Shown here: positions 8,032-63,704 of the stretch, piece after piece
Position numbering within the stretch: position 1 is the stretch's first letter
How the letters are laid out: each line of letters begins with the position of its first letter
Made by a program: the position numbers and the translations under genes
The notes under the pieces: model-generated
Database searches by the model: none
Told to the model about the DNA's origin: nothing
What the model saw: only the letters and a program-made list of their open reading frames with translations
Assembly (NCBI GenBank): GCA_032164245.1
Contig: JAVMKO010000001.1
Span: 251,419,644-251,483,643, forward strand
Length of the DNA stretch: 64,000 nucleotides
Source of the DNA: Sternotherus odoratus
Taxonomy: Eukaryota > Chordata > Testudines > Kinosternidae
Direction: 5' to 3'

Positions 8032-8771
8032 TGTGGCAGGGTGCTGGCCAGGAGGGCCTGAGCCAGCCCTGCTGGCCCTTTAAGAGGGAGAAAAGCCCTC
8101 TGCAAACCCCCGGGCAGGAAGGCTAATTAGCCACCTGAGGTGCAGGCCAATCAGCCTGCATGAGTTGCACCTGGCAGCCTCCTCTGGGGGATATAAGGCT
8201 GCCAGGAAGGAAGCCCAGGGTGGTGGTGGTGGTGTGTGAGCTATCAAGAGCTGTGTGTGTTTGTATCACTGTTAGCTGGACTACTTAGAGTCCATAGAGC
8301 TGGATCACTGTTAGCTGGACTATCTAGAGTCCCTAGAGCTGTGTTAACTGTTAGCTGGACTATCTAGAGTCCCTAGAGCTGTGTAAACTGTTAGCTGGAC
8401 TACATAGAGTCCCTAGAGCTGTGTAAACTGTTAGCTGGACTACATAGAGTCCCTAGAGCTGTGTTAACTGTTAGCTGGACTACATAGAGTCCCTAGAGCT
8501 GTGTAACTGTTAGCTGGACTACATAGAGTCCGTAGAGCTGGGTATTAATGAGCTATCAAGAGCTGAGTGGGTATTAATGAGCTATCAAGAGCTGAGTGTG
8601 TGTTTGAGCTATCAAGAGCTGAGTGTGTATTAATGAGCTGTTTATTAATGAACTGTTTAACCTGTATATATTGGTGGTGGGGTCCTGCACTGTAAATTAA
8701 AGGGCACTGTTGGAGCAAAAAAGGGTTTCCTGCCTGTGTTCCTGAGCGGGGTGAGAGAGCGGTCTGTCACA
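8032..8771 (+). mobile_element. Solo LTR (740 bp) with internal promoter and minisatellite
   Basis: It begins TGTGGCAGGGTGC and ends GCGGTCTGTCACA (TG...CA). A 4-bp duplication ATAT lies on each side (8028-8031 and 8772-8775). A TATA-like GGGATATAAGGCTGCC sits at about 8188, followed by GT repeats and the tandem array. No internal retroviral or Gypsy genes are nearby, so it is a solo LTR. The family is unknown. Confidence 0.75.
8276..8545 (+). repeat. Minisatellite of about 45 bp inside the solo LTR
   Basis: About six copies of a unit CTGTTAGCTGGACTACATAGAGTCC followed by a short GAGCTGTGTAA spacer. A second motif GAGCTATCAAGAGCTGAGTG repeats at about 8550-8630. Confidence 0.9.
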
Positions 8772-13193: not shown

Positions 13194-13329
13194 AGCTGTA
13201 TTCCCTTCTTCAATCTGGACTGCCACAGGCTGACAGGCAGAAAGCGCAAGGAACCGTTTTACTCTTGCATCCTAGTGTGGACCAGAAAAGCAATGGTCAT
13301 ATGCTCCAGGTCTGTCAAGTAGATGCATT
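13194..13329 (-). ncRNA. Second H/ACA box snoRNA, paralogue of the intron 5 copy
   Basis: On the minus strand hairpin 1 is closed by TGCAT/ATGCA, then comes the H box AGAGTA. Hairpin 2 is closed by GGTTCCTT with AAGGGAAT and shares the core CTTTCTGCCTGTCAGCCTG...TGGCAG with the intron 5 copy. The ACA box sits 3 nt from the end (ACAGCT). It lies about 0.9 kb beyond the TPT1 poly(A) signal, so it needs a read-through or alternative TPT1 transcript, or its own host. Confidence 0.65.
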
Positions 13330-14402: not shown

Positions 14403-17400
14403 CTGTAACAAGAATAGAATGGTTATTTCAGGTTCAGCCAATCAATGGTCTCTAAACTCTGCATGTGTTCCCCAATTCAGTCTGAGCTGCCACATGATCA
14501 GGCAGGCAGAAAGCACAAGGAAGTTCCTTTTGCATCACAGTGCAAACCCAGGAGCAGCAGGAGAATTGCTCAGGGTCCATCAGAGGATGCGTAACAGTCT
14601 ACAGGTTTTCAGAGCTATTGACCCTGAGCTTTCTAAAGGTACCAGACAGAACAATGGCCACCTAGATTTCACCCTGCCGCCCCCCTCTCCTCCCCCTTGC
14701 TGGCAAGGCAATGTGACGGAGCTCATCTTATGCTACATCCTGAATACAAGTTCAAGATCACAGGGAACATAAGTGCTTAACCTTTACAGAATATGGCACA
14801 TATCTGATAAAGTCAAGAGGAGCTGTGAGACTGTTTCAAGGGACAGCATTCCAAGAGAACAAAATTTTCCTGCTACCCACCCTAGGAATCAATAGTGTTT
14901 ACCAGTGCACTGAAGGTCTGAGAAGCATAAAAAAAAGTTCTCTCAGCCCAAGTGATGGTGATTCCCATTTTCACTAATTTATTTTAACAGTTAAAGCCAC
15001 ATGACCCTGAGAAATCAGAGCTGCAGGAGCTAACAGGCATATTTAGTTCTGTATCAACTTGGTCTGATACTCTCCAGTAGGAAAAAAAATTAGCTGGCTA
15101 CCTTTAAAACACGTTCATACCAAAAAATTTACACTAGACATTACGTAATACAAGTTTAATGCCTTGCACCTGATTTTCATGGATTTGTGAAGTTAAAGTG
15201 CCTGTGAATAATATTAACTAAACGTCATCTTCCAGTATTGGCCCCACCAAAGTAATCTAAAGGAAGGGATTTGCTGTGGCACAATATAATGAGATACTAG
15301 CGTCACTTATGTTCTTACTAAGATACCTAGTCTGACCTCATATCTCAGAAACTATTAAATTTTACCAGCTATCCCTTCATGGAGCCTGATAACCAGTGCT
15401 GTCACATCTACATTTCGACCAGTGATTCTAGTTCCAAAGCTACTCTGAATGCTACACTTACATTTTATAGTACCCTAACTTGCTGGCTAATGGGGCGTGA
15501 AAAATCACCCCTCTGACTGCAAGAAGTTTGAGCACTTTTAAAGCCCTAGTGTGGACAGCTCCCAGCACTCTGAGTTATTCCTCTTGTGGAGGTGGATTAC
15601 CAGGAGTGCTGGGAGAGCTCTCTCAGCACTCACATGTGACCACACTCACTTCAAAGCACTGCCACAGGAGTGCTCCCATGGCAGTGCATTCAAGTTTCTA
15701 GTGTAGACATAGACTTAGTAACTTGCAACATTTATATTGCAACAGTGGACACAAGGGAAGTTAGCTACAGGCTTAGCTAGGTTAATAATTTGACTCAAGA
15801 ACTCAGTACTTACACACTTCTCAGTTTCTAAACCATCCTTAAAGAAAATCATATATGGAGTTACTCCATCTTCACGGAAGTCCAGGAGACCCACCATGCC
15901 ATCTGGATTCATGTTCTCACCTACAAAGAACTTTGAAAAAGCATTGGTTTTACTACAATTAGTGTACTAGGAATTAAAGACTGAGTAATGAAAATACTCC
16001 TGAGACAGAATTTGAAAAAACCTGGTCATCCCACACCAGAAAGTTTTCTTGGCCAAGTGCCATCAATTTGTAATGAATCTAATCCCATTTTGGAAGAGCT
16101 TTAGCTCTTATGGTTAGAATCTTCCAAATAAGTCAATACAATCATTGCCTTTGGGCTCCTCTTCACTCCCACGGTGCGGGATCGATCTTCTGGCGATCAA
16201 TTTATCGCATCTGGTTAAGACGCAATAAAGCGATCGCTTGTGGCTCCCGTCGACTCCATAACTCCAGCTTGCCGGGAGGCGCAAGCTGGAGTTGACGGGG
16301 GAGCACGTCGCCGACATGGGGATGGTAGGTAAGTTGGCGGCAGATACATATCTGCTGTTGATATCTCCTCCCCCCCCTCCCCGTGAGGACAAGCCCCAAG
16401 TAAGCCAGCTTCAAGGCTTCTACTGTATATTCAACCGCTGAGAAAAGCCGTGATAGCTTGACTTTGGTCAACTGTGCTATGTCTACTCAGAGCCCTGTAG
16501 ACAGTGCAAGTCAAGAGTCGGGTCAACTCCATTCTGCTGCTGCTCAAGAAAGCCATGAGCAACAAACACAGAGCCATTTATAAAGTAGGACAAGACAGCC
16601 TGAAAAAAGGTAGATTTATGGTTCCCCCAACCACCGCCCTTCACAGCGGTCAGGAGGTTCAAAGTCTAAGGTGCATGCAATAAATAGCAGGACAAATCTC
16701 AGCTGAGGTCTGTTTTATACTACAAAATAGTTAGCTATTTATGCTTACTTGGTAATTTTTGAAGTTTGCAAGGATGTGTTTGACTTGTTCTGCAGCCCCC
16801 ATCATGAAAGGCTTTACTCTCTCTGGCTTGTGTTCCTCAAGTCTGGCTTTGATTCTGAGAGAAAGAAAACAAGCTCTTAACTAGAATCTAACAACAAAGG
16901 AGTTCAGCAGACCAGGGTCATTTTATGCCCAAGGTGAAGACTTCTGCCTGCTGTTGCTGAACCTCTGCTCAGCAGCATTCCTAATATCCCCAGCTCCCTG
17001 ACTATTGACATTTGCAAGGCAAAATGCTCTGGCTGTTCAAAAAGCAACTAACAGTACTTCATGAGACTCCCAAGTTGGAGGGAACACTGGTCCACTTAGA
17101 GGGAAGAAAGTTAGAAGTCTGGATACTGGGCAGTTAGATAATTAGAACAGTTTAGTTACATGCATAATTTTAGGCAATGAAACATTTTCTGTTGTGTCAA
17201 ATTGACCAGCTTCCTGGAAATCTAGATTGCTTGTGTTATAAACTGTATTTACCTACAAATATTCTAGACTTACTAGTTCTAGAATGCCTCTGATCTCAGG
17301 CAATGAGGCCAAATAAGTGTTAGTGCATCAAGCCTCACCATGTGGGGTAGATGAAAAATTCCTGTTTTCCACATCAAGCCTGGAACAGGAAGGAAAGGGT

Positions 17401-19411
17401 AAGACATACCCTCATGAACAAGTCCTATAGCTTAGCTAAGACCACTTTCTGAAGTGCCCCCCTATAGTTCAAGTCTCAAATGATGGCAAACAATTGGAGC
17501 ACTAACAATGAGGAGCCCTTGTGGTACCTTAGAGACTAACCAATTTATTTGGGTACAAGCTTTTGTGGGCTAAAACCCACTTTGTCAGATGCACTGAAGT
17601 TATCCAAGTGTCAAACTGACCACACCACATACCAGCATCTACCATGACCTATACTTGCTTTATTTAGAGAATGATACCCAAGAAGGTGAAATTCATGATG
17701 TACCATTCACAGGAGAGTTCTAGGGTAACACCCAATTTTCACTTACGCTTTCATGTAGTCCCTAATATACTTCTTGTAGGATTCTTTTGTAAAGCTAGTT
17801 TCCTGAAGATGGTGATTCATTACTATATCAACACCAGTCATAACTGTGGGATCTGTTCCTTCATCAGCAGTTTCAGAGGAGGCATTGCCACCAATTAACG
17901 CATCAGCAATCTGACCTTCTGTCCTGGTGACCATCTGGATTGAAAGAGAACATCAAAAGCTTATTAAAGAAAAGGGCCACAGAATCAAATGTCAGAGTAG
18001 TAGCTGTGTTAGTCTGTATCTGCTAAAAGAATGAGGAGTCCTTGTGGCACCTTAGAGACCAACAAATTCAGTCTCTAAGGTGGCACAATTACTACTTGTT
18101 CTTTCTACAGAATCAAATGATACTTACACTGTTCAGAAAAGCATCATTAACTCAGCCACACTGCTGCTGTCAGTCAATTCAGGAACTGCTCATTTTAGAG
18201 CCAAAGTGAACTACAGAACTACCCCATTATTTAACAATAACAGCGCTGAATTCTTGAGACTGTCCTATCAGATGAGTAGGGCTAGTACATCCATACAGGT
18301 TAAAGATACATCAGTACTGGGATACTAGTCCTGTATCAAGTCCTGATAAGACTGATAAACCACCCCCAAAAGCTACACAGACTACTGGAGCTGAAGTATT
18401 CTCAGGTAGGTCAATCCACTATCTGGGGTATTCCCAGACATACCAGTCACTTCAGTGGTTTGCTTCCCTTTAGTCACTAGCAACAAGTCAGGCTGTTAAC
18501 CACTTCAAGAAAGGACTAAGAACCATAGTTCATGGATCTGCTAGCAGGAGGGGCCAGAATAAGAAGTTCAAATGAACCTCTTGGCACCCCCTCTCCTGGT
18601 TAGGCTAAACTAACAGTTACCCCTGTGAGGGTCAAGTCACAGACTAGATCAGGGTACTAGCCCCACACCCTCTCTTCAGAGTGGGACCAATCAGCCCCCT
18701 CAAGGGTTGAACTCACACCCCTGGCTTTAGCCGGCCGATGGTCCAACCACCGAGCTACCCCTCCCTCTGGCTTGGCCAGAGCTGCCCCCGCACCCCAGCA
18801 GCCTCGCTCCAGAACCTGCCTCTGGTCCCCCCGGCAGGGCCGAGCGAGCAGCTGATGCTGGGGGCCGAGGAGGCCCCAGGCCGCCTTGCGGGTGACACCG
18901 CGGCGCGGCTGGGCCTCTGGCGAGAGCCGCCCGGGTGGGGGTGGGGGGGTTCCGTGGCCGAGCTCCGCGCCCCGGGGACGCGCTCGCGGCCGGGAGCAGC
19001 AGCGGCCCCCGCAGCGCCCAGGCGGCGGCGCCAGGACACGTGTCCCCCCGCCCCGGGCGGGCCCCGCCGCGGTGACTCACCTTCCCCTCCACTTCCAGGC
19101 AGAGCCCGTCGGCCACCTCCCGGATGCGGTAGATATCGGAGAACATCTCGTCCTCTGCGGGGAGAGCGCGGCGTCAGCCCGGCCCCACAACCCCCCCATC
19201 TCCAGCCCCGCGGCCCAGGCACCGCCCCCGGCCGCTCCCCGCCGGGCCGCTCCCCTCCCCCCGCCGCAGAGCTCCGCATTCCCCGCCCGGCCTGCTCATG
19301 CGCGGGGCCCTGGCGGCGCGGCCGGTCCCGCAGCGCCCCGCCGCCCCCCTCCCCCGCCCGGCCCGGCGCGGCGCGGCGCTCACGGCTGATGCAGTCCCGG
19401 TAGATGATCAT
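14400..19411 (-). CDS. TPT1: TPT1, translationally controlled tumour protein (TCTP), complete, six exons
   Basis: Coding segments on the minus strand are 19411-19384, 19154-19081, 17934-17747, 16854-16749, 15930-15814 and the stop codon at 14402-14400. They sum to 516 nt, i.e. 171 residues plus TAA, against 172 in mammals. All introns are GT-AG and phases match. The product begins MIIYRDCIS, has the first TCTP signature (IGGNASSE, from residue 48) and the second (GENMNPDG, in exon 5), and ends in EKC. TCTP is an abundant cytosolic protein with roles in growth control, calcium and tubulin binding and anti-apoptosis (family knowledge). The mRNA start is pyrimidine-rich (TOP type), which fits mTOR-dependent translation. 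H/ACA snoRNA candidates lie in intron 5 and just past the 3' end. Intron 2 carries a fold-back SINE; introns 4 and 5 carry MITE-like repeats. Residue 10 is Gln, split across exons 1 and 2, where I remember His in mammals. Confidence 0.97.
14463..14592 (-). ncRNA. H/ACA box snoRNA (SNORA31-like) in TPT1 intron 5
   Basis: Read on the minus strand, a first hairpin is closed by GCATC/GATGC and followed by an H box AAAGGA (ANANNA). A second hairpin follows, with the core CTTTCTGCCTGCC...GTGGCAG, and an ACA box sits exactly 3 nt before the expected 3' end (ACACAT). It is about 130 nt long, in an intron and in the sense of its host, as expected for this class. TPT1 hosts SNORA31 in mammals, as I remember, so that is the likely identity. 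The fold was judged by eye only. Confidence 0.7.
15500..15712. repeat. MITE-like repeat in TPT1 intron 5
   Basis: It is bounded by AGCCCTAGTGTGGACAGC and TTTCTAGTGTAGACATAG, and contains CAGGAGTGCTGGGAGAGC and its partial complement. It belongs to a group of turtle repeats ending in a GTGTAGACA motif. Confidence 0.4.
15814..15930 (-). CDS. TPT1: TPT1 coding exon 5, last amino-acid-coding exon
   Basis: The acceptor is TTCAAAG. The exon encodes [18 protein letters not shown] onward to GLETEKC and holds the second TCTP signature. It ends exactly after the terminal Cys codon, followed by the donor GTAAGT. The stop codon is supplied entirely by exon 6. Confidence 0.96.
16140..16500. repeat. MITE-like repeat in TPT1 intron 4
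   Basis: CpG-rich insert with CACGGTGCGGGATCGATC and a 34-bp imperfect palindrome centred near 16276 (AACTCCAGCTTGC ... GCAAGCTGGAGTT). It ends near CTATGTCTACTCAGAG. The small open frames here are not genes. Confidence 0.45.
16749..16854 (-). CDS. TPT1: TPT1 coding exon 4
   Basis: The acceptor is TCTCAG and the donor GTAAGC. It encodes the helical hairpin ([16 protein letters not shown] and then [19 protein letters not shown]), the alpha-helical tubulin-binding region in the family. Confidence 0.96.
17514..17598 (+). mobile_element. 5'-truncated tRNA-SINE in TPT1 intron 3
   Basis: The body begins AACAATGAGGAGCCC, the common truncation point, and ends CTTTGTCAGATGCACTG. It lies in plus orientation, antisense to TPT1. 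Confidence 0.8.
17747..17934 (-). CDS. TPT1: TPT1 coding exon 3
   Basis: The acceptor is ATCCAG and the donor GTAAGT. It encodes residues 35-97, starting MVTRTEGQ. It includes the TCTP signature IGGNASSE, the acidic loop, and the [15 protein letters not shown] segment leading into the helical hairpin. Confidence 0.97.
17992..18106. mobile_element. Fold-back tRNA-SINE insertion in TPT1 intron 2
   Basis: Plus head and body (TCAGAGTAGTAGCTGTGTT to AGAGACCAACAAATT) are followed by the inverted copy (CAGTCTCTAAGGTGGCACAA) back to TTCTTTCT. A perfect 13-bp duplication ACAGAATCAAATG flanks it (17979-17991 and 18107-18119). Confidence 0.9.
19081..19154 (-). CDS. TPT1: TPT1 coding exon 2
   Basis: The acceptor is CCCCGCAG and the donor GTGAGT. 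The exon starts with the last two bases of codon 10 and encodes [16 protein letters not shown] and then LCLEVEGK, the conserved N-terminal TCTP beta-strand region. Confidence 0.96.
19384..19411 (-). CDS. TPT1: TPT1 coding exon 1
   Basis: Start codon at 19411-19409 in the context GCCGCCGCCATGA. The exon encodes MIIYRDCIS plus one base and is followed by the donor GTGAGC at 19383. The reading frame continues through the intron without a stop, so longer open frames here are not real exons. Confidence 0.96.
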
Positions 19412-21842: not shown

Positions 21843-21986
21843 TAGGGTTGCCAGACATCAAATGTGAAAAATCGGGACAGGGTGTGTGTGTGTGTGTGTG
21901 TGGGGGGGGGTAATAGGAGCTTATATAAGAAAAAGACCCCAAAAATCGGGACTGTCCCTATAAAATCGGGACATCTGGTCACCCTA
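21843..21986. mobile_element. Short hAT-type MITE (144 bp)
   Basis: The ends are TAGGGTTGCCAGAC and ATCTGGTCACCCTA, with a perfect 8-bp target duplication GGCTCGTG (21835-21842 and 21987-21994). It contains a (TG)n tract and a G10 run. Confidence 0.88.
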
Positions 21987-39289: not shown

Positions 39290-39414
39290 TAGGGTGACCA
39301 GATGTCCCAATTTTATAGGGACAGTCCCGATTTTTGGGTCTTTTTCTTATATAGTCTCCTATTACACCCCTCACCCCTGTCCTGATTTTTCACACTTGCT
39401 GTCTGGTCACCCTA
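39290..39414. mobile_element. Short hAT-type MITE (125 bp)
   Basis: The ends are TAGGGTGACCAGATGTCCC and GTCTGGTCACCCTA. The flanks ACCAGAAT and ACCAGGAT form a 7/8 target duplication. It is the same family as 21843, in the opposite orientation. Confidence 0.85.
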
Positions 39415-47521: not shown

Positions 47522-47646
47522 CAGGGTGACCAGCTGTCCCAATTTTATAGGGACAGTCCCGATTTTGGAGTCTTTTTCTTATATAGGCTCCTATTACCCC
47601 GCATTCCCTGTCCTGATTTTTCACACTTTGCTGTCTGGTCACCCTA
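47522..47646. mobile_element. Short hAT-type MITE (about 125 bp), target duplication not evident
   Basis: It is nearly identical along its length to the element at 39290 (CAGGGTGACCAGCTGTCCC ... GTCTGGTCACCCTA). The flanking 8 bp do not match, so an end may have mutated. Confidence 0.75.
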
Positions 47647-52900: not shown

Positions 52901-55900
52901 TGAATGTATACATGATCTGTTTCTTGCTATTTTTATAGGATTGCCCCTGCAATGTTACGCCAGGCTTCATATGGAACAATAAAAATAGGCACGTATCAAA
53001 GCTTAAAGAGAATGTTTGTTGAGCAGCCAGAAGGTGAGTGGATTTTCAGCTTTACCACTGCTTGGTAATATTTCATCTAGAGTTGTCTGTATTGTTTCCA
53101 TATCAGTCCTATGTAGGCTGACCATATTTCCTTGAGACAAAAACGGGACATTGGGATGGCAAAAACGGGACAGGGTTGGGGGGTCTCACCAGATGAAGTC
53201 GTGCAGTGGCTGCAAAACGTGGGCTGAGGGGCGCACGGGGGGTGGTCTGGGGGCTCTGGGCGGTCTGGGGGGGCTCTGGGGAGGCTCTAGGGGGTCTCAC
53301 CAGATGAAGTCGGTGCAGTGGCTGCAGAACATGGGCTGCTTGAAGAAGCATGCCATGAATTTGTGGCTCTTGACCTCGTGGATCACCTTCAGGCACAGCG
53401 CCACCTTGTGGCAGAACAGCGGCTTGGCCAGGCACTCCAGCTCGGTGGGCGAGGTGACCAGCGCCATGGCCCCACCTGGCCCCCCAGCACTGGCGGGGGG
53501 TAGATGGGGGGGGGGGGGGGGAATGGAGGAATAAACAGAGATGGGGGGGATGGAGTGGGGGGGATGGAGAGGGGGGGAGCGGCGGCGGGCTAAAGCCGAC
53601 TGAGCTGTCTGGAGCCGCAGCCGGGGGCCGAGGTGGGGACGGGCGCGCCAGTGGGGGAGCTGCTCACTGGAAGTTATTAGAAATAAATAGTTCTCGGGCA
53701 TCTTTTCCATCACCCGTCCAGCGGTGGGACACTGGTGCTGGGCTGGCGAGATGCAGTTTGCTCATCGGCGATTTTGATCTCTTTGCCTTTCTCCCTCTCT
53801 CTGCTGCCTGCACCTTGCCTGCATTTTCAGGCACTTCTGCTGAGCTCCAATACCGGGGGGAGGTGTGACCCTTTGTGTCCTCTGCAAAGACAGACCCTCT
53901 GCAGGTGCATTTTTGAGCCCCGGAGCATGGGGTGGCCGTGTGGGGCCAGATCTCGGCTCTCGCTCCGTAGGCTGCTGGCTCAAGAGCTACTGAACAGGGA
54001 GGGAGGGTAGTGTCCACAGAGCGGCCCCAGTCTGGTTAGTTCAAGGGCCCTGCTCCCACTGAAGTGTTGCTACTGATCGCAGTGAGGGCAGGATGGGTCC
54101 CTACACGTTTGTCTCTGGAAAGGATAAAGGCGAGTAAAGCCACGTTCCGTTTTTTACAAAAAACTGAACAAAATTGATATTTGTATTAAAAAGACGGGAC
54201 GGTCCGAAAATATGTAAAAAACGGGACTGTCCCGTTCAAAATGGGACGTATGGTCAGCCTAGTCCTATGATGCATAGGTACATTGTATTGTATCAATGAA
54301 ATGTATGTATGCATCAGCTTTACATTTATTCATTTTAAAAAATGGTTCTGCAAATAAAATTCCAACAAATTGAGCTGTCTTAAAAAGAAAGTGTTTAGCT
54401 CCTTCCTTTCAACTGCCTCTTTCATTGAACAACGTAAAGCATTGATTTGCACTTGATGTCTTATCACAGTGTAAAAGCCTGTGGCTGAGAATTTGTTTTT
54501 GCTTCTGGAATAGATGAAACCCTGGTGATAAATGTATTATGTGGCATTCTGTCGGGGGTGATTTCATCATCGATTGCCAACCCTACAGATGTTTTGAAGG
54601 TATGTTGGTGTGTTTTTATCAAGTTTTTATTTTTTGGTATAGGTTCCTTTGTATTCTTGATGAGAACAGTCTACTGATCATTGTGTGCTATATTCTGTTG
54701 CTTTTCAATATACTTAAATTACTTAATTTAGAAAGGCTCCAGGGGAAGAACTGAACTGTAGAAATTTCCTTCCAGGCATGCTGGTCAGATGGAGGCATGC
54801 AATTTGATGAAATCCGTGTTCTTGGGGGCGAGGAGAATCATTTGATTACTTTTTTCTTGCTTCAGAGCACAGTGAACTACAGTAAACGCTCGATTTAACG
54901 GACTTCGGATGCAACGGACAAAATTTCTGAGCAAGTCTGATGCATTCCTGATCCATTTCTGGCGGGCTGGCTGCCGGCTCCCGGCTGTCGCCTGGGTCAT
55001 GGCAGCGGGCGGGCTGGCTGCCGGCTCCTGCCCGGGTCCCGGCAGCGGGCGGGCTGCAGAGCTGCCGCCCAGACCCTGTGGCAGGTGGGCTGCTGCTCCG
55101 ACAGCTCATTTTTTTTATTATTATTAAATAACTGACTTCTTGATTTAACGGACACCCCCTTGCCCGAATTAGTCCGTTAAATGGAGGTTTTACTGTACTC
55201 AAGTTGCTGTTGCCCCTCCTCTTTCCCCAAACTTGACTAGTGCTGAAGCTGTACTCTAAATTTTAAAAATCGGTGTGAGTTGACCTATGTTGCTTAAAAT
55301 GCTGGTCATTTGCAAGTGTGTAAAGGACCACTTACCCAGCACTGACATCCAGAAATCTTTAGGTTGGAAAAAGTAATAGGGTTCTAGAAAAAATCCAGTA
55401 GGCCATGCTCTCTCTTTTTTTTTCTTTTCTCCTGTGGAAAAACTAGTAGCACAATGCCCTTGCACGGTGCATTAGTGACTTGAGCCAAGTGCCACCTAGT
55501 GAAATCACCAACACCACATTTTCATCAATGGTTTAAAAATTTGTGGGTATCTCCTGTCCCAAGTACTGGTAAGGTTGATCCTAGTTAGTTTACAAGACCG
55601 TGGCCTGAGATTACTTGGCTGCTTCTGTACATGCTGTAGTTTCCTGAGAATTGAGGGGAAAAATAATCTTGCTTTTTATGTAGTGCCTAATTTTAGGCCT
55701 TCATCGCAAATAAAATAGAATAAAAATAAATGGTTTACAACTTCCCATTTCATAGAAGGGGTCGGAGAAATAGCAACATAGGCAAGCCTTTATTGGCTCC
55801 ATTCTGGAATTATAGTGTACAGTGTGATGCAGGACAATACCCTGAACAAACTTTAATGAGTTAAGTTAAATGTCACTGGAGGTGCATTGTATTAAAAAGG

Positions 55901-58900: not shown

Positions 58901-61900
58901 TGTCCCCATGAGCCACCCAAGTCATGCGGAAACTGGCTGACTAGAAACCTCTTGGCTAGATTTTCTGCATGTGTACTTTGTAATCTATTTGGCACATGAA
59001 CATTGAGTTCAGTCCTCTCTAGAAAGTTTAACTCTTTTTTTTTTTTTTTTTTTTTGATCACCATTTTCAATTACGTCCTCAAAGAGGTAGTGCTAGTGCA
59101 TGGAAAGCACTACCATAACAATCTGGGGTATGATCAGAGCCATGATTTGAACCTTATATGTGCACAAAACACATTAGTAGAATTTGTTAACATTAAACGC
59201 TGCCTTTAAGATTTTTTTTTCCCCCTCAAGGACTCCTTTGTTTAAGTGACCTCAAATTCGGATACTTAACTCAGATCACCCAGCTAATTTCAAGACAATC
59301 TGAATAAGCATGTGGCTATTGGAACCCTTGGAGTTAGCTTTTAAATGGGGCTTCTCAACCTTAGCTCTGCTATTAGTTAACAAAAGTTATCCTCTCTTCA
59401 GCTGAAAACTATTACGTGTATTGGTGAGGGTAAAATATTTCCTTGACACAGGGAATATAACTCTTCCATTAACTAACAAATTAACCAAGTTATAACACTT
59501 ACAAGGAGTATTGCAACAGTGTAGAATTTATTTTAACAGCTTTCCGAGCTGACTTAAAATGGAAAGACACCTTTCTATATATTATAGCCTGGTTCAAGAG
59601 CAGGGCTGGTTTTGTTAAATAGCTTCAATATGGGGAGTCTGGCACTGTTAGATGAATGTCTGAAAGCAGGGAGCAGATATTCTGGGAGGGGTTTGGTAAT
59701 TTGAATAGTCTCTTGATTTATAATTTTCTGGTTCAAACTTTGACCACTGAACAACTCCTCTACCACCCTGGGATGTTTCTTGTGATCCGGTGGGTTAAGA
59801 CATGGGTTTAGGAGAATGAGATTTTATTCCAACTTCTACCACAAACCATGTGAACTGAAGTAGTTACTTAAGCTGTGCACATCTTTTTCCCATCAACAAA
59901 ACTGGAATAGTTTCTGCAGTGTGGAGGAATTAGGTACTAGCCATTTAAATGGTGTGGGAAGTCCTTTGTAAAACATGTTATGATTTGCTGATGAAAAGCA
60001 CTACAGGATTTAAAATAAACTGTACCTGGTTGGAATTGAATAATATTTAATGAACTTCTTCTCACCTGTAACTATAATCAGGGGTTTTCAAATTTTCAGT
60101 TTGCATCATATCTTAGAGTGGCATGGACTGCCTTGTAAGCCATTCATTACTACAGAAAATCTCTGTGGCCACTACTGAAATTCTATGCATGACCAATATT
60201 TGCATTTCCATCTGTTGAGAAACATTAGTGGTTAGTCTTCGAAAAATGCAGTCAGTCTACTTTTGCTCTCCATTTTCTCTCCCCCCTCAATATTGTTGGT
60301 CTCTCTCAGACTGTAAGATGAGCCAGCACAAGCCTGCCATCTCTCCGCAGACTACCAGCTGCAAGTCCAAAGATTTCAGTCTGAGAACGTCTGCTTGTAG
60401 ATCAGTGATGGCGAACCCGTGGCACGCGTGCCACTGCCGGCACGCCGAGCCATCTCTGTGGGCACGCCGCTCGTGAGCCAGATGTGGCTCTTTTGAGTCT
60501 GTCATCTGGCTCGCGTGGCGCTCTCTGTCCGCGAGGCTGGGGGGCGGGGGAGGCGGTGTGGCGCGGCGCTCTCTGTCCGCGAGGCTGGGGGGCGGGGGAG
60601 GCGGTGTGGCGCGGCGCTCTCTGTCCGCGAGGCTGGGGGGCGGGGGAGGCGGTGTGGCGCGGCGCTCTCTGACCGCGAGGCTGGGGGGCGGGGGAGGTGG
60701 TGTGGCGCTCTCTGACCGCGAGGCTGGGGGGCGGGGGAGGCGGTGTGGCGCGGCGCTGCTGTGACCGCGAGGCTGGGGGGCGTGTCGCTCTTCTCCTTCC
60801 CTCGCTGGAGTCGGGTCACAGCAGCGTGACCCAGCGAACAAGTAAGTGCCGGGGGGGGGGGTAAGCGGTGTGCAAGGGGGTGTTGGGGGAAGGCTGGGCT
60901 GGGAGCGGGGGTAAGCGGTGTGGGGGAGAGACCGGGCTGGGTGGGTCAGTTGGGGGGGGTTGGAGGAAAGGAGGTTTGGGGGGGAGAGACCGGGCTGGGT
61001 GGGTCAGTTGGGGGGGGTTGGAGGAAAGGAGGTTTGGGGGGGAGAGACCGGGCTGGGTGGGTCAGTTGGGGGGGGTTGGAGGAAAGGAGGTTTGGGGGGG
61101 AGAGACCGGGCTGGGTGGGTCAGTTGGGGGGGGTTGGAGGAAAGGAGGTTTGGGGGGGAGAGACCGGGCTGGGTGGGTCAGTTGGGGGGGGTTGGAGGAA
61201 AGGAGGTTTGGGGGGGAGAGACCGGGCTGGGTGGGTCAGTTGGGGGGTTGGAGGAAAGGAGGTTTGGGGGGGAGAGACCGGGCTGGGTGGGTCAGTTGGG
61301 GGGGGTTGGAGGAAAGGAAGTTTGGGGGGGAGAGGGCTGGGTGGGTCAGTTGGGGGGGGTTGGAGGAAAGGAAGTTTGGGGGGGAGAGACCTGGCTGGGT
61401 GGGTCAGTTGGGGGGTTGGAGGAAAGGAGGTTTGGGGGGGAGAGACCGGGCTGGGTGGGTCAGTTGGGGGGGGTTGGAGGAAAGGAGGTTTGGGGGGGAG
61501 AGACCGGGCTGGGTGGGTCAGTTGGGGGGGGTTGGAGGAAAGGAGGTTTGGGGGGGAGAGACCGGGCTGGGTGGGTCAGTTGGGGGGGGTTGGAGGAAAG
61601 GAGGTTTGGGGGGGAGAGACCGGGCTGGGTGGGTCAGTTGGGGGGGGTTGGAGGAAAGGAGGTTTGGGGGGGAGAGACCGGGGTGGGTGGGAGGGAAGGA
61701 GGTTTTGGGGGGAGAGACCGGGCTGGGTGGGAGGGAAGGAGGTTTTGGGGGGAGAGACCGGGATGAGTGGGTCAGTTGGGGGGGGGGTGTACAGTTGTTG
61801 TTTTTTGTTTTGTTTTTTGTTTTTTTGTTTTTTTCAATTAAAAAAATGTTTAATGGAAAGCTCTGTTATTGTGTTTTTCTTTTTAAACAAAAGCTGTTAA

Positions 61901-63704
61901 TTAGTTTGAAAAACTGTACGAATTGTTTTTTCTAAACTAAAACCTCGTTATTCAGGTTTAATTGCAGTGTTGGCACTTTGAAAAAAACAAGTCGTTTTGG
62001 TTTGCAGTTTGGGCACTCGGGCTCAAAAAGGTTTGCCATCACTGTTGTAGATGATGGCTGAGATGTTGGTGGGGCAATATGGGGAAGCTTAGATTGCTGC
62101 TGTGCTTTCACCAGGGTGGTCTGTCTGGGATCTTTTACAAGAACTACATTTATACACCTTAATACCATATACCACTTTATAAAGTTTTTTTAAAAAGTGT
62201 TTTCTCAGTATCCAAATCTTGTTCTGGGAATATTTCATAGGTGCTTTTAATCTAAAATGTAATGGTATTTCTGACATCTTCAATCAGATGTACAAAAGAT
62301 GCCACTTTTAAAATCTCTAACATTATACATTTGTTTTGCCAGGGGGTGTCCCTAACAGCTCAGAGAGCTGCTATTGTTGTAGGAGTGGAGCTGCCAGTCT
62401 ATGATCTCACCAAGAAGCACATAATTATGTCTGGACTCATGGGAGACACTGTGTATACTCACTTCCTGTAAGCTTGAACAGGCATAAGAGTGAAGTTTAC
62501 AAAGATCTAGTTCAGGGGTCTCAAACTCAAATGACCATGAGGGCCGCATGAGGGCTAGTGCACTGGCTCGAGGGCCGCACCACTGACACACACACACACC
62601 CTCGCTGCCCCGGCTGTGCCCCCACTCCACCCCTTCCATGAGGACTAGTGCACTGGCCCGAGGGCCGCACCACTGACATACACCCCGCCCTTGCTGCCCC
62701 GGCTCCGCCCCCACTCCACCCCTTCCAAGAGGTCCCACCCCTGCCCCACCTCCTCCTCTGAGCACGCAGCTCCCCATTCCCTCCTGGAAAGCGCTAGGCA
62801 CCACCAACAGCTGTTTGGCAAACAAAGCAAGAGCAATCTAGGAAGTCCAGAGCTAGAAACACACACGGCCCAGCCAGGCAGCAGAGAAGCCTCCACTTCT
62901 GGCCCCTCCGTCCTGCAAACTGCTATGGGGGGACCGGGGGGGGGGGGGGGGGCGCCAGGAAGCTTGGCGGGCCGCAGGGAAGGGCTTTGCGGGCCGCATG
63001 TGGCCCCCGGGCCGCATGTTTGAGACCCCTGATCTAGTTGTATGATCCCCTTACAGAAGTTGCACTAATTTTAATGTTGGACTTTTCAGAGAATAAATTA
63101 ATTTCACATTTCGTTTTTTCTCACCATCAGTTGGTGTATATATTTACTTCTAGTGTATTTAAATGGTTACTTGCAGTATTTCAATGACATTTCATGCTCT
63201 GAAAGCCAATAGTGTTTTTTGTGCTGTTCATGTATTTTTTGACCTGTATAGACATTTTTATGGTTCAAAATACCTACATTGGGTGTGTATATAAAGGATG
63301 AAACTAAAAATCCATCCTGATATTTTAAGAGTAGTAAAGACATTTTAAAGTATGAAATTTCTTCCTGATGGTTACTCTGTGTGTGTATAAGTCTTCGCCT
63401 GTGATGTATTTTTTCAGGTAAACTAACTGAAAAAGTAGTTTATTAATAGAAATGCAAAAACAACTTTTAGCCATAGCAGAAATTTTTAATTTTCCATAAG
63501 GTGTTTCTGTATATTTCTAAGTTGCTGGGAGTAGGTCATTTTTCTAATGGTTTATCTTTCATTAGCTCAAGCTTCACCTGTGGATTAGCTGGAGCACTTG
63601 CATCAAATCCAGTTGATGTTGTGAGGACACGGCTGATGAACCAGCGAAGATTTCAAGATGGAACACATTCAGGGTATAAGAATACTTTGGATTGCTTGTT
63701 ACAA
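49843..63704 (+). CDS. SLC25A30: SLC25A30, kidney mitochondrial carrier protein 1, 3' end outside window
   Basis: Coding exons are 49843-49906, 51355-51502, 52939-53033, 54514-54599, 57227-57322, 62343-62467 and 63566-63704. They give 753 nt (251 codons) in a continuous frame with GT-AG introns. The human protein is 291 residues as I remember it, so one exon of about 40 codons lies beyond the window. The product begins [20 protein letters not shown] and has the three SLC25 repeats with signatures PIDLTK (residues 25-30), PTDVLK (126-131) and PVDVVR (220-225). It should be a six-helix carrier of the inner mitochondrial membrane, in the SLC25A14/SLC25A30 branch related to uncoupling proteins. 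The very short N-terminus favours SLC25A30 over SLC25A14. Three introns carry hAT elements within about 20-80 bp of a splice donor. Confidence 0.96.
49907..51354 (+). other. SLC25A30 intron between coding exons 1 and 2
   Basis: AT-rich; one G15 tract near 50191 and a T10 tract near 50671. No recognisable repeat or RNA. Confidence 0.6.
51355..51502 (+). CDS. SLC25A30: SLC25A30 coding exon 2
   Basis: The acceptor is GACTTTAAG and the donor GTAAAA. It encodes the first carrier signature [14 protein letters not shown] and runs through GLKALYS. Confidence 0.95.
52939..53033 (+). CDS. SLC25A30: SLC25A30 coding exon 3
   Basis: The acceptor is TTTTATAG and the donor GTGAGT. It encodes [20 protein letters not shown] and then [12 protein letters not shown] hAT carrying a kinase exon begins 80 bp after this exon. 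Confidence 0.95.
53180..53345. repeat. Partial tandem duplication of the captured PKC exon end
   Basis: The block starting GGGTCTCACCAGATGAAGTC occurs near 53181 and again near 53292. Both copies continue with GTGCAGTGGCTGCA and an AAC/TGGGCTG tail. Between them are short GGGGCTCTGGG-type repeats. The exon end and donor were thus duplicated inside the hAT. Confidence 0.75.
53298..53467 (-). pseudogene. Captured first coding exon of a conventional protein kinase C (PKC-gamma-like)
   Basis: On the minus strand an ATG at 53467 opens [19 protein letters not shown], followed by [11 protein letters not shown] and then [16 protein letters not shown]. This is the N-terminus and first zinc-binding part of a PKC C1A domain. 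KPLFC and KSHKF fit PKC-gamma better than alpha or beta (from memory of human proteins). Directly after the exon lies a splice-donor-like CTG/GTGAGA, so genomic DNA, not mRNA, was captured. The rest of the kinase is absent, so it cannot make a kinase. Confidence 0.85.
54514..54599 (+). CDS. SLC25A30: SLC25A30 coding exon 4
   Basis: The acceptor is CTGGAATAG and the donor GTATGT. It encodes [20 protein letters not shown] and then IANPTDVLK, ending with the second carrier signature. Confidence 0.95.
54880..55195. mobile_element. Tigger/pogo-type MITE (316 bp)
   Basis: The ends CAGTAAACGCTCGATTTAACG and its near complement at 55172-55195 form imperfect inverted repeats, flanked by TA on both sides (54878-54879 and 55196-55197). 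This is as expected for Tc1/mariner-pogo elements. The interior is GC-rich with a GGGCGGGCTGGCTGCCGGCTC block repeated. Confidence 0.8.
55198..57226 (+). other. SLC25A30 intron segment, mostly unclassified
   Basis: A stretch at about 55920-56550 resembles a dispersed turtle repeat, but I cannot define its ends. Otherwise unique-looking. Confidence 0.4.
57227..57322 (+). CDS. SLC25A30: SLC25A30 coding exon 5
   Basis: The acceptor CTGCCTTAG follows an odd G7 run; the donor is GTAAGT. It encodes [18 protein letters not shown] and then [14 protein letters not shown]. Confidence 0.95.
57672..57711 (+). repeat. (ATCT)n microsatellite
   Basis: CATATATCTATCTATCTATC and continuing, about 40 bp, in SLC25A30 intron 6. 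Confidence 0.9.
57855..57955 (-). repeat. MIR-like ancient SINE fragment in SLC25A30 intron 6
   Basis: CAGGTCAGTAGCATAGACAG, GATCCCAGGTCTTCTGAG and TGCTCTGTCTACCAGGCCACG match the minus-strand right part of MIR. Confidence 0.55.
57956..60394 (+). other. SLC25A30 intron segment, nothing recognised
   Basis: AT-rich, with a T22 run near 59033. Short open frames only. Confidence 0.5.
60515..60780. repeat. 48-bp minisatellite inside hAT
   Basis: About five to six copies of a unit beginning CTCTCTGTCCGCGAGGCTGG (starts at 60521, 60569, 60617, 60665 and on). The period of 48 is a multiple of 3, which gives a repetitive open frame that is not evidence of a gene. Confidence 0.9.
60927..61785. repeat. 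58-bp G-rich minisatellite inside hAT, about 16 copies
   Basis: The unit contains ACCGGGCTGGGTGGGTCAG; starts are at 60931, 60989, 61047, 61105, 61163, 61221 and on, with slightly shorter or damaged copies near 61277-61445 and 61677-61757. The unit has no stop codon, and a period of 58 shifts frame at every copy, so all three plus-strand frames stay open. Many G-runs per unit suggest quadruplex potential. Confidence 0.95.
62343..62467 (+). CDS. SLC25A30: SLC25A30 coding exon 6
   Basis: The acceptor is TTTTGCCAG and the donor GTAAGC. It encodes [20 protein letters not shown], then [16 protein letters not shown] and VYTHF. A hAT begins 46 bp after this exon. Confidence 0.95.
62513..63031. mobile_element. 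hAT-type transposon (519 bp) next to SLC25A30 coding exon 6
   Basis: The ends are CAGGGGTCTCAAAC and GTTTGAGACCCCTG, perfect inverted repeats. The 8-bp target duplication ATCTAGTT is perfect (62505-62512 and 63032-63039). The interior repeats a GAGGGCCGCACCACTGACA block twice and has a G15 run at about 62937. Confidence 0.92.
63566..63704 (+). CDS. SLC25A30: SLC25A30 coding exon 7 (penultimate)
   Basis: The acceptor is TTTCATTAG and the donor GTAAGT. It encodes [20 protein letters not shown] and on to NTLDCLLQ, with the third carrier signature. A partial hAT starts only about 20 bp after the exon. Confidence 0.95.

Follow-up and report, generated by a model that had tools for sequence, protein, structure and literature searches.

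Pack-TIRs and related elements in animals

The capture of host DNA by TIR transposons of animals has been catalogued in the only systematic survey of animal Pack-TIRs that was found, which applies a 90% identity rule and reports 370 Pack-TIRs in 100 genomes, 208 of them belonging to hAT, the commonest superfamily (Tan et al., 2021, PMC8277862). Exonic sequence is given for 13.4%, and four are multicopy, a figure given as 1.4%; single-copy Pack-TIRs tend to sit near their donor, and microhomology is seen at one or more breakpoints in 67.6% (PMC8277862). The American alligator accounts for 38 Pack-TIRs of all superfamilies, and such counts do not support the original prediction on one point, namely that few captures of this kind are known in vertebrates (PMC8277862).

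The turtle element described here is very probably a Pack-TIR of the hAT superfamily (Pack-hAT), that is, a non-autonomous MITE whose own interior has given way to ~0.96 kb of host sequence, with the first coding exon of a PRKCG gene in it. Like the Pack-hATs known from animals, it holds host DNA between the two ends of one TIR element with a target duplication; its filler of ~0.96 kb, in contrast, compares with a survey median of 224 bp and contains an exon, a splice donor and a partial internal repeat (PMC8277862). A close counterpart is Pack-hAT-N8_XT of the western clawed frog, likewise a hAT with a 5'-end piece of a host gene (the 5' UTR of CAPSL), although this frog element occurs in three copies with different target duplications while the turtle element is known from one locus (PMC8277862). 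Turmoil-1 of Caenorhabditis elegans is also a transposable element that has taken up host coding sequence (transduplication), but carries it in the terminal repeats rather than in the interior (PMC2572040). Finally, hAT-6_XT, found in turtles, fishes and a frog, resembles the present element in being a hAT that resides in turtle genomes and has 8-bp target duplications, and differs in encoding a transposase (PMC11008031).

No account naming the present element was found among the titles and starts of abstracts listed, nor did literature searches return anything joining PRKCG with hAT and turtle, or protein kinase C with hAT capture. The string TAGGGTGACCA returned publications that, by title, do not concern transposons, and neither PRKCG nor SLC25A30 is named in the main text of the survey (PMC8277862).

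The element, its setting and its sister MITEs

The element spans 1148 bp at positions 53114-54261 of the window, the whole stretch of 64,000 nucleotides that was analyzed (Table 1). Its TIR, TAGGCTGACCATA, is inverted at both ends, with 13 bp exact and 18 nt at 89%, and a perfect 8-bp duplication, GTCCTATG, stands on both sides. When the whole window was scanned for perfect 13-bp inverted repeats at most 5 kb apart and enclosed by a perfect 8-bp direct repeat, two places were recovered (53114-54261 and 62513-63031), as opposed to none in 200 dinucleotide-preserving shuffles; with 10-bp ends, the window yielded three places and the 200 shuffles together yielded one. The inverted ends and perfect 8-bp duplication of the original prediction are confirmed at these coordinates, beyond what shuffled sequence produces by chance.

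Table 1. Features of the element, its host gene and its relatives in the window
Feature	Position	Strand	Basis
Left target-site duplication GTCCTATG	53106..53113	.	Sequence read and window scan
Left transposon shell: TIR TAGGCTGACCATA and CAAAAACGGGAC repeats, into the G-run at the junction	53114..53183	+	Exact TIR, repeats
Partial second copy of the PRKCG exon-1 end with donor, 48 bp, 1-bp deletion, keeps ACG	53179..53226	-	Repeats, alignment
Presumed start of PRKCG intron 1: GT donor, then C-rich stretch	53227..53300	-	Sequence read
PRKCG first coding exon, captured, with an open frame of 55 codons and two bases of the split Trp codon; 7 derived replacements	53301..53467	-	Protein searches, alignments
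Remaining filler, GC-rich	53468..54141	-	Composition, frame searches
Right transposon shell, made up of the TIR and AT-rich subterminal sequence	54142..54261	-	BLAST, alignment; inner bound inferred from composition
Right target-site duplication GTCCTATG	54262..54269	.	Sequence read and window scan
Sister MITE, 125 bp, duplication ACCAGAAT/ACCAGGAT (7/8)	39290..39414	.	Inverted repeats, alignment
Sister MITE, 144 bp, perfect 8-bp duplication GGCTCGTG	21843..21986	.	Alignment
Sister MITE with a changed first base and no visible target duplication	47522..47646	.	Alignment
Host coding exon, mitochondrial carrier (approximate bounds)	52939..53032	+	Pfam Mito_carr E 0.016, below cut-off
Following coding exon of the host gene (mitochondrial carrier; bounds approximate)	54515..54600	+	Pfam Mito_carr E 0.00027, just below cut-off
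Two SNORA31 snoRNA genes	13194-13328 and 14461-14592	-	A few kb from the TCTP (TPT1) match

With regard to superfamily, short TIRs (15 bp) are stated for hAT elements (PMC11008031). The turtle element possesses both an 8-bp target duplication and short TIRs (13 bp exact), a combination that, judged from sequence, fits a non-autonomous member of the hAT superfamily, while the duplication is uninformative as to which hAT group the element belongs to. In the TIRs of hAT elements, position 2 favors A and position 5 favors G; the present TIR agrees at position 2, whereas at position 5 it has C at both ends and so differs from its sister MITEs, which carry G there. Pfam scans of 12 frames showed no transposase, and mobility of the element would depend upon a hAT transposase supplied in trans. 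An exact 18-base pattern of the right end gave no match in viral contigs.

The element is intronic, lying between two mitochondrial-carrier coding exons, and a third mitochondrial-carrier frame, close to the right end of the window, scores above the Pfam cut-off (E 9.1e-6). A TCTP/TPT1 match is located in the frame at 18727-19173 (E 4.5e-5; 24.2 bits, the cut-off being 24.3). In vertebrates, SNORA31 is hosted by TPT1, and TPT1 neighbors SLC25A30. Given the carrier matches together with TPT1 and SNORA31 nearby, the host gene is probably SLC25A30.

The shells that enclose the interior differ in how closely they resemble the three sister MITEs of the window, two of which bear 8-bp duplications (one perfect, one 7/8). 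Specifically, the last 44-46 bp of the right shell are 80-83% identical to all three, while past the TIR of the left shell 24 bp (53161-53184) are 83% like one of these MITEs (39290-39414) at its opposite end, a weak match (E 0.73 when the window is compared with itself by BLAST) of which a longer version contains gaps. The inner bounds of both shells are drawn from composition and MITE matches, and the left shell overlaps the adjoining 48-bp repeat by a common G-run. With its right end well matched to the MITEs and its left end only weakly, the element as a whole has the appearance of a TAGGSTGACC-group MITE into which foreign DNA has been placed.

The poor match of the left shell, and the frequency of MITEs of this group (three others in 64 kb), might suggest instead that two separate MITEs came to flank an older duplicated PRKCG fragment by chance. 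This is, however, very improbable: the two outer ends share 13 identical bp and lie within a single perfect target duplication, and both shells thus belong to one TIR element.

Several further repeats are present in the window. An intact hAT-like element with a GC-rich interior occupies 62513-63031, its ends, CAGGGGTCTCAAA, being exact inverted repeats within a perfect 8-bp duplication, ATCTAGTT. Another hAT-like element, at 60403-62044, has 10-bp ends, CAGTGATGGC, and a perfect 8-bp duplication, TTGTAGAT (such 10-bp pairs arose once in 200 shuffles), and holds a 48-bp array as well as a 13-copy tandem array of 58 bp. On the plus strand, a 197-aa open frame at 41424-42017 matches RVT_1 just below the cut-off (E 2.4e-6) and is probably a LINE remnant, and a tandem array of ~7 copies of a 40-bp unit, with 94% matches, lies at 8268-8540.

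The captured interior

The interior contains an open first coding exon whose ATG (53467-53465, minus strand) stands in a favorable context, GGGGCCATGG, and whose donor is intact (CTG/GTGAGA, with GT at 53300-53299). We take exon 1 of PRKCG to end at a split Trp codon, which is where the donor stands here. Protein comparisons point to the same origin. Firstly, 40 residues of the frame align with PKC beta of solved structure (E 2.5e-14). Secondly, in a search scored on the exon and aimed at full-length proteins, 35 of 35 candidates matched at E<=1e-6, none of them named as another PKC isoform, although several are called simply 'Protein kinase C' and one 'hypothetical protein'. A search of short proteins with the 154-aa frame gave two matches at E<=0.01 among 46 candidates, namely monitor lizard PRKCG and an unverified gecko protein. 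With respect to PKC profiles, expected to recognize the protein, the outcome was divided: the match to PKC beta stands, while Pfam C1_1 scores 16 bits (E 0.011), short of the 26.5 that its cut-off demands, and is covered from position 1 to 22 of its 53. The strict form of the test fails, as would be expected of half a C1 domain, which is what the exon encodes.

The best full-length match is PRKCG of Pelodiscus sinensis, which aligns without gaps over 56 of 56 residues and is identical at 48 (86% over the whole exon). V4, T5, L10 and A14 are common to the element and Pelodiscus, where squamates have L4, S5, T10 and T14, and this argues for a turtle-like parent; Pelusios, another turtle with a differing annotated start, shares only L10 and A14 of the four. 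The original prediction of a first coding exon of a PKC with its ATG and donor, taken from a turtle source, is accordingly borne out as to the exon and supported as to a turtle-like parent, and the PKC-like stretch, rather than continuing past the hAT ends, lies wholly within them (53301-53467). Since the exon is followed by a donor and non-coding bases, its capture would have taken place at the DNA level. A retrocopy was considered and rejected: the donor GTGAGA is succeeded by non-coding C-rich sequence, and no exon 2 is present.

Beyond the presumed start of intron 1, a second exon end of 48 bp, with two substitutions and one deleted base, adjoins the left shell. The left junction itself sits in a G-run (on the strand opposite to GTGAGACCCCCC), and the MITE is G-rich at the matching place. 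The simplest reading is that the 48-bp copy was left by a slip during template-switching repair, although the repeat could already have been present in the parental intron. Folded as single-stranded DNA, the junction gives a z of -3.3, with an equal or better fold in 1 of 200 shuffles.

On the other side of the exon, the ~670 bp upstream of the ATG most likely represent 5' UTR and promoter-side DNA of PRKCG. CpG is raised at ~53500-53700; three open frames from the right half of the filler gave no Pfam match at E<=0.1, and one of these frames, compared with proteins, gave none at E<=1 (five candidates). Exon 1 and the intron start together provide a non-TE host interior of more than 100 bp, one of the properties by which Pack-TIRs are recognized.

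The exon does not retain all the conserved residues of PRKCG. Compared with that protein it carries seven replacements (R20H, G22V, R25C, Q26L, T38M, R40C and T46M). The parental residue is present at positions 22, 25, 40 and 46 in 37 of 37 compared proteins, at position 20 in all 36 that cover it, and at position 38 in 36 of 37 (the gecko protein has Ala), while position 26 holds either Gln or, among birds, His; all seven replacements are derived and fall at sites that hardly vary. Cys12, the one remaining difference from Pelodiscus, is probably ancestral, as Pelusios and squamates also have Cys. Five of the seven fit one CpG transition each, with parental codons inferred. At codon 46, such a transition is supported from within the element, since the short second exon end still reads ACG (Thr46) where the main copy has ATG. 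The exon is decaying. The right shell, however, remains CpG-rich (observed/expected 1.56 and 0.98 in two 100-bp steps, versus 0.42 and 0.36 in the flanks), which argues against even CpG decay across the element.

That the exon might nevertheless serve as a functional alternative first exon, or as a gene of its own, is suggested by the open frame, the favorable start context, the donor and the raised CpG upstream. We regard such a role as highly unlikely, in view of replacements at residues almost invariant in PRKCG, an orientation antisense to the mitochondrial-carrier host gene, and an exon that stops in the middle of a C1 domain. The captured exon is today probably inert passenger DNA.

Order of events and significance

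Under the Pack-hAT explanation, the filler would stem from a turtle-like PRKCG gene and take in its first coding exon with the beginning of intron 1, and probably its 5' UTR and promoter side as well. A break inside a MITE would have been repaired by template switching with the help of microhomology in the G-run, and one slip during this repair would have given rise to the 48-bp copy of the exon end. Two orders of events can be accommodated within this explanation. In one, the SLC25A30-like intron first received an ordinary hAT MITE, and break repair afterwards copied the PRKCG piece into that MITE, such that the chimera never moved and exists as one copy; we give this order an even chance. 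Consistent with it are the junction in a G-run and the slip-like partial repeat. Against it, the donor probably lay on another chromosome, human PRKCG and SLC25A30 being on different chromosomes. The survey bears on this order in both directions: its Pack-TIRs are as a rule single-copy, in keeping with gap filling, while gap-filled cases favor nearby donors (59.8% on the same chromosome) and the ~0.96 kb filler is long against the 224-bp median (PMC8277862).

In the other order, which is plausible but held with less than even confidence, the chimera formed at another hAT copy and moved as a unit, in which case further copies may exist. Perfect TIRs and a perfect 8-bp duplication surround the unit, as this order would have it, though they would stand equally after filling in place. 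Published multicopy cases lie far from their donor, and yet multicopy elements are rare in the survey, numbering four or 1.4% (PMC8277862). Nothing like a second copy turned up among annotated proteins, the 46 candidates for the 154-aa frame yielding just the monitor lizard and gecko proteins and the five for one right-half frame yielding no match, which is weak evidence because such copies would rarely be annotated. Base rates thus favor filling in place, while the length of the filler and the probable location of the donor on another chromosome lean the other way.

It is unlikely that the element belongs to a multicopy Pack-hAT family that has carried promoter-side DNA of PRKCG, together with its start codon and first splice donor, to many places in turtle genomes; were this so, ready-made first exons could provide other genes with half a C1 domain or a neuronal promoter.

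The turtle element is a real, well-formed Pack-hAT with a decayed first exon of turtle-like PRKCG, and represents a kind of capture already known in animals. What is new here is the decay of the exon, the 48-bp second exon end at the left junction, and the position of that junction in a G-run. As a vertebrate case the locus is a clean one, in which a signaling gene's first coding exon is kept, along with its splice donor, inside a DNA transposon. As the second, shorter exon end at the junction has diverged independently, the locus may record both a repair slip and the decay that came later, and comparison across turtles could tell whether capture preceded or followed insertion, thereby separating models of gap filling from models of transposition.
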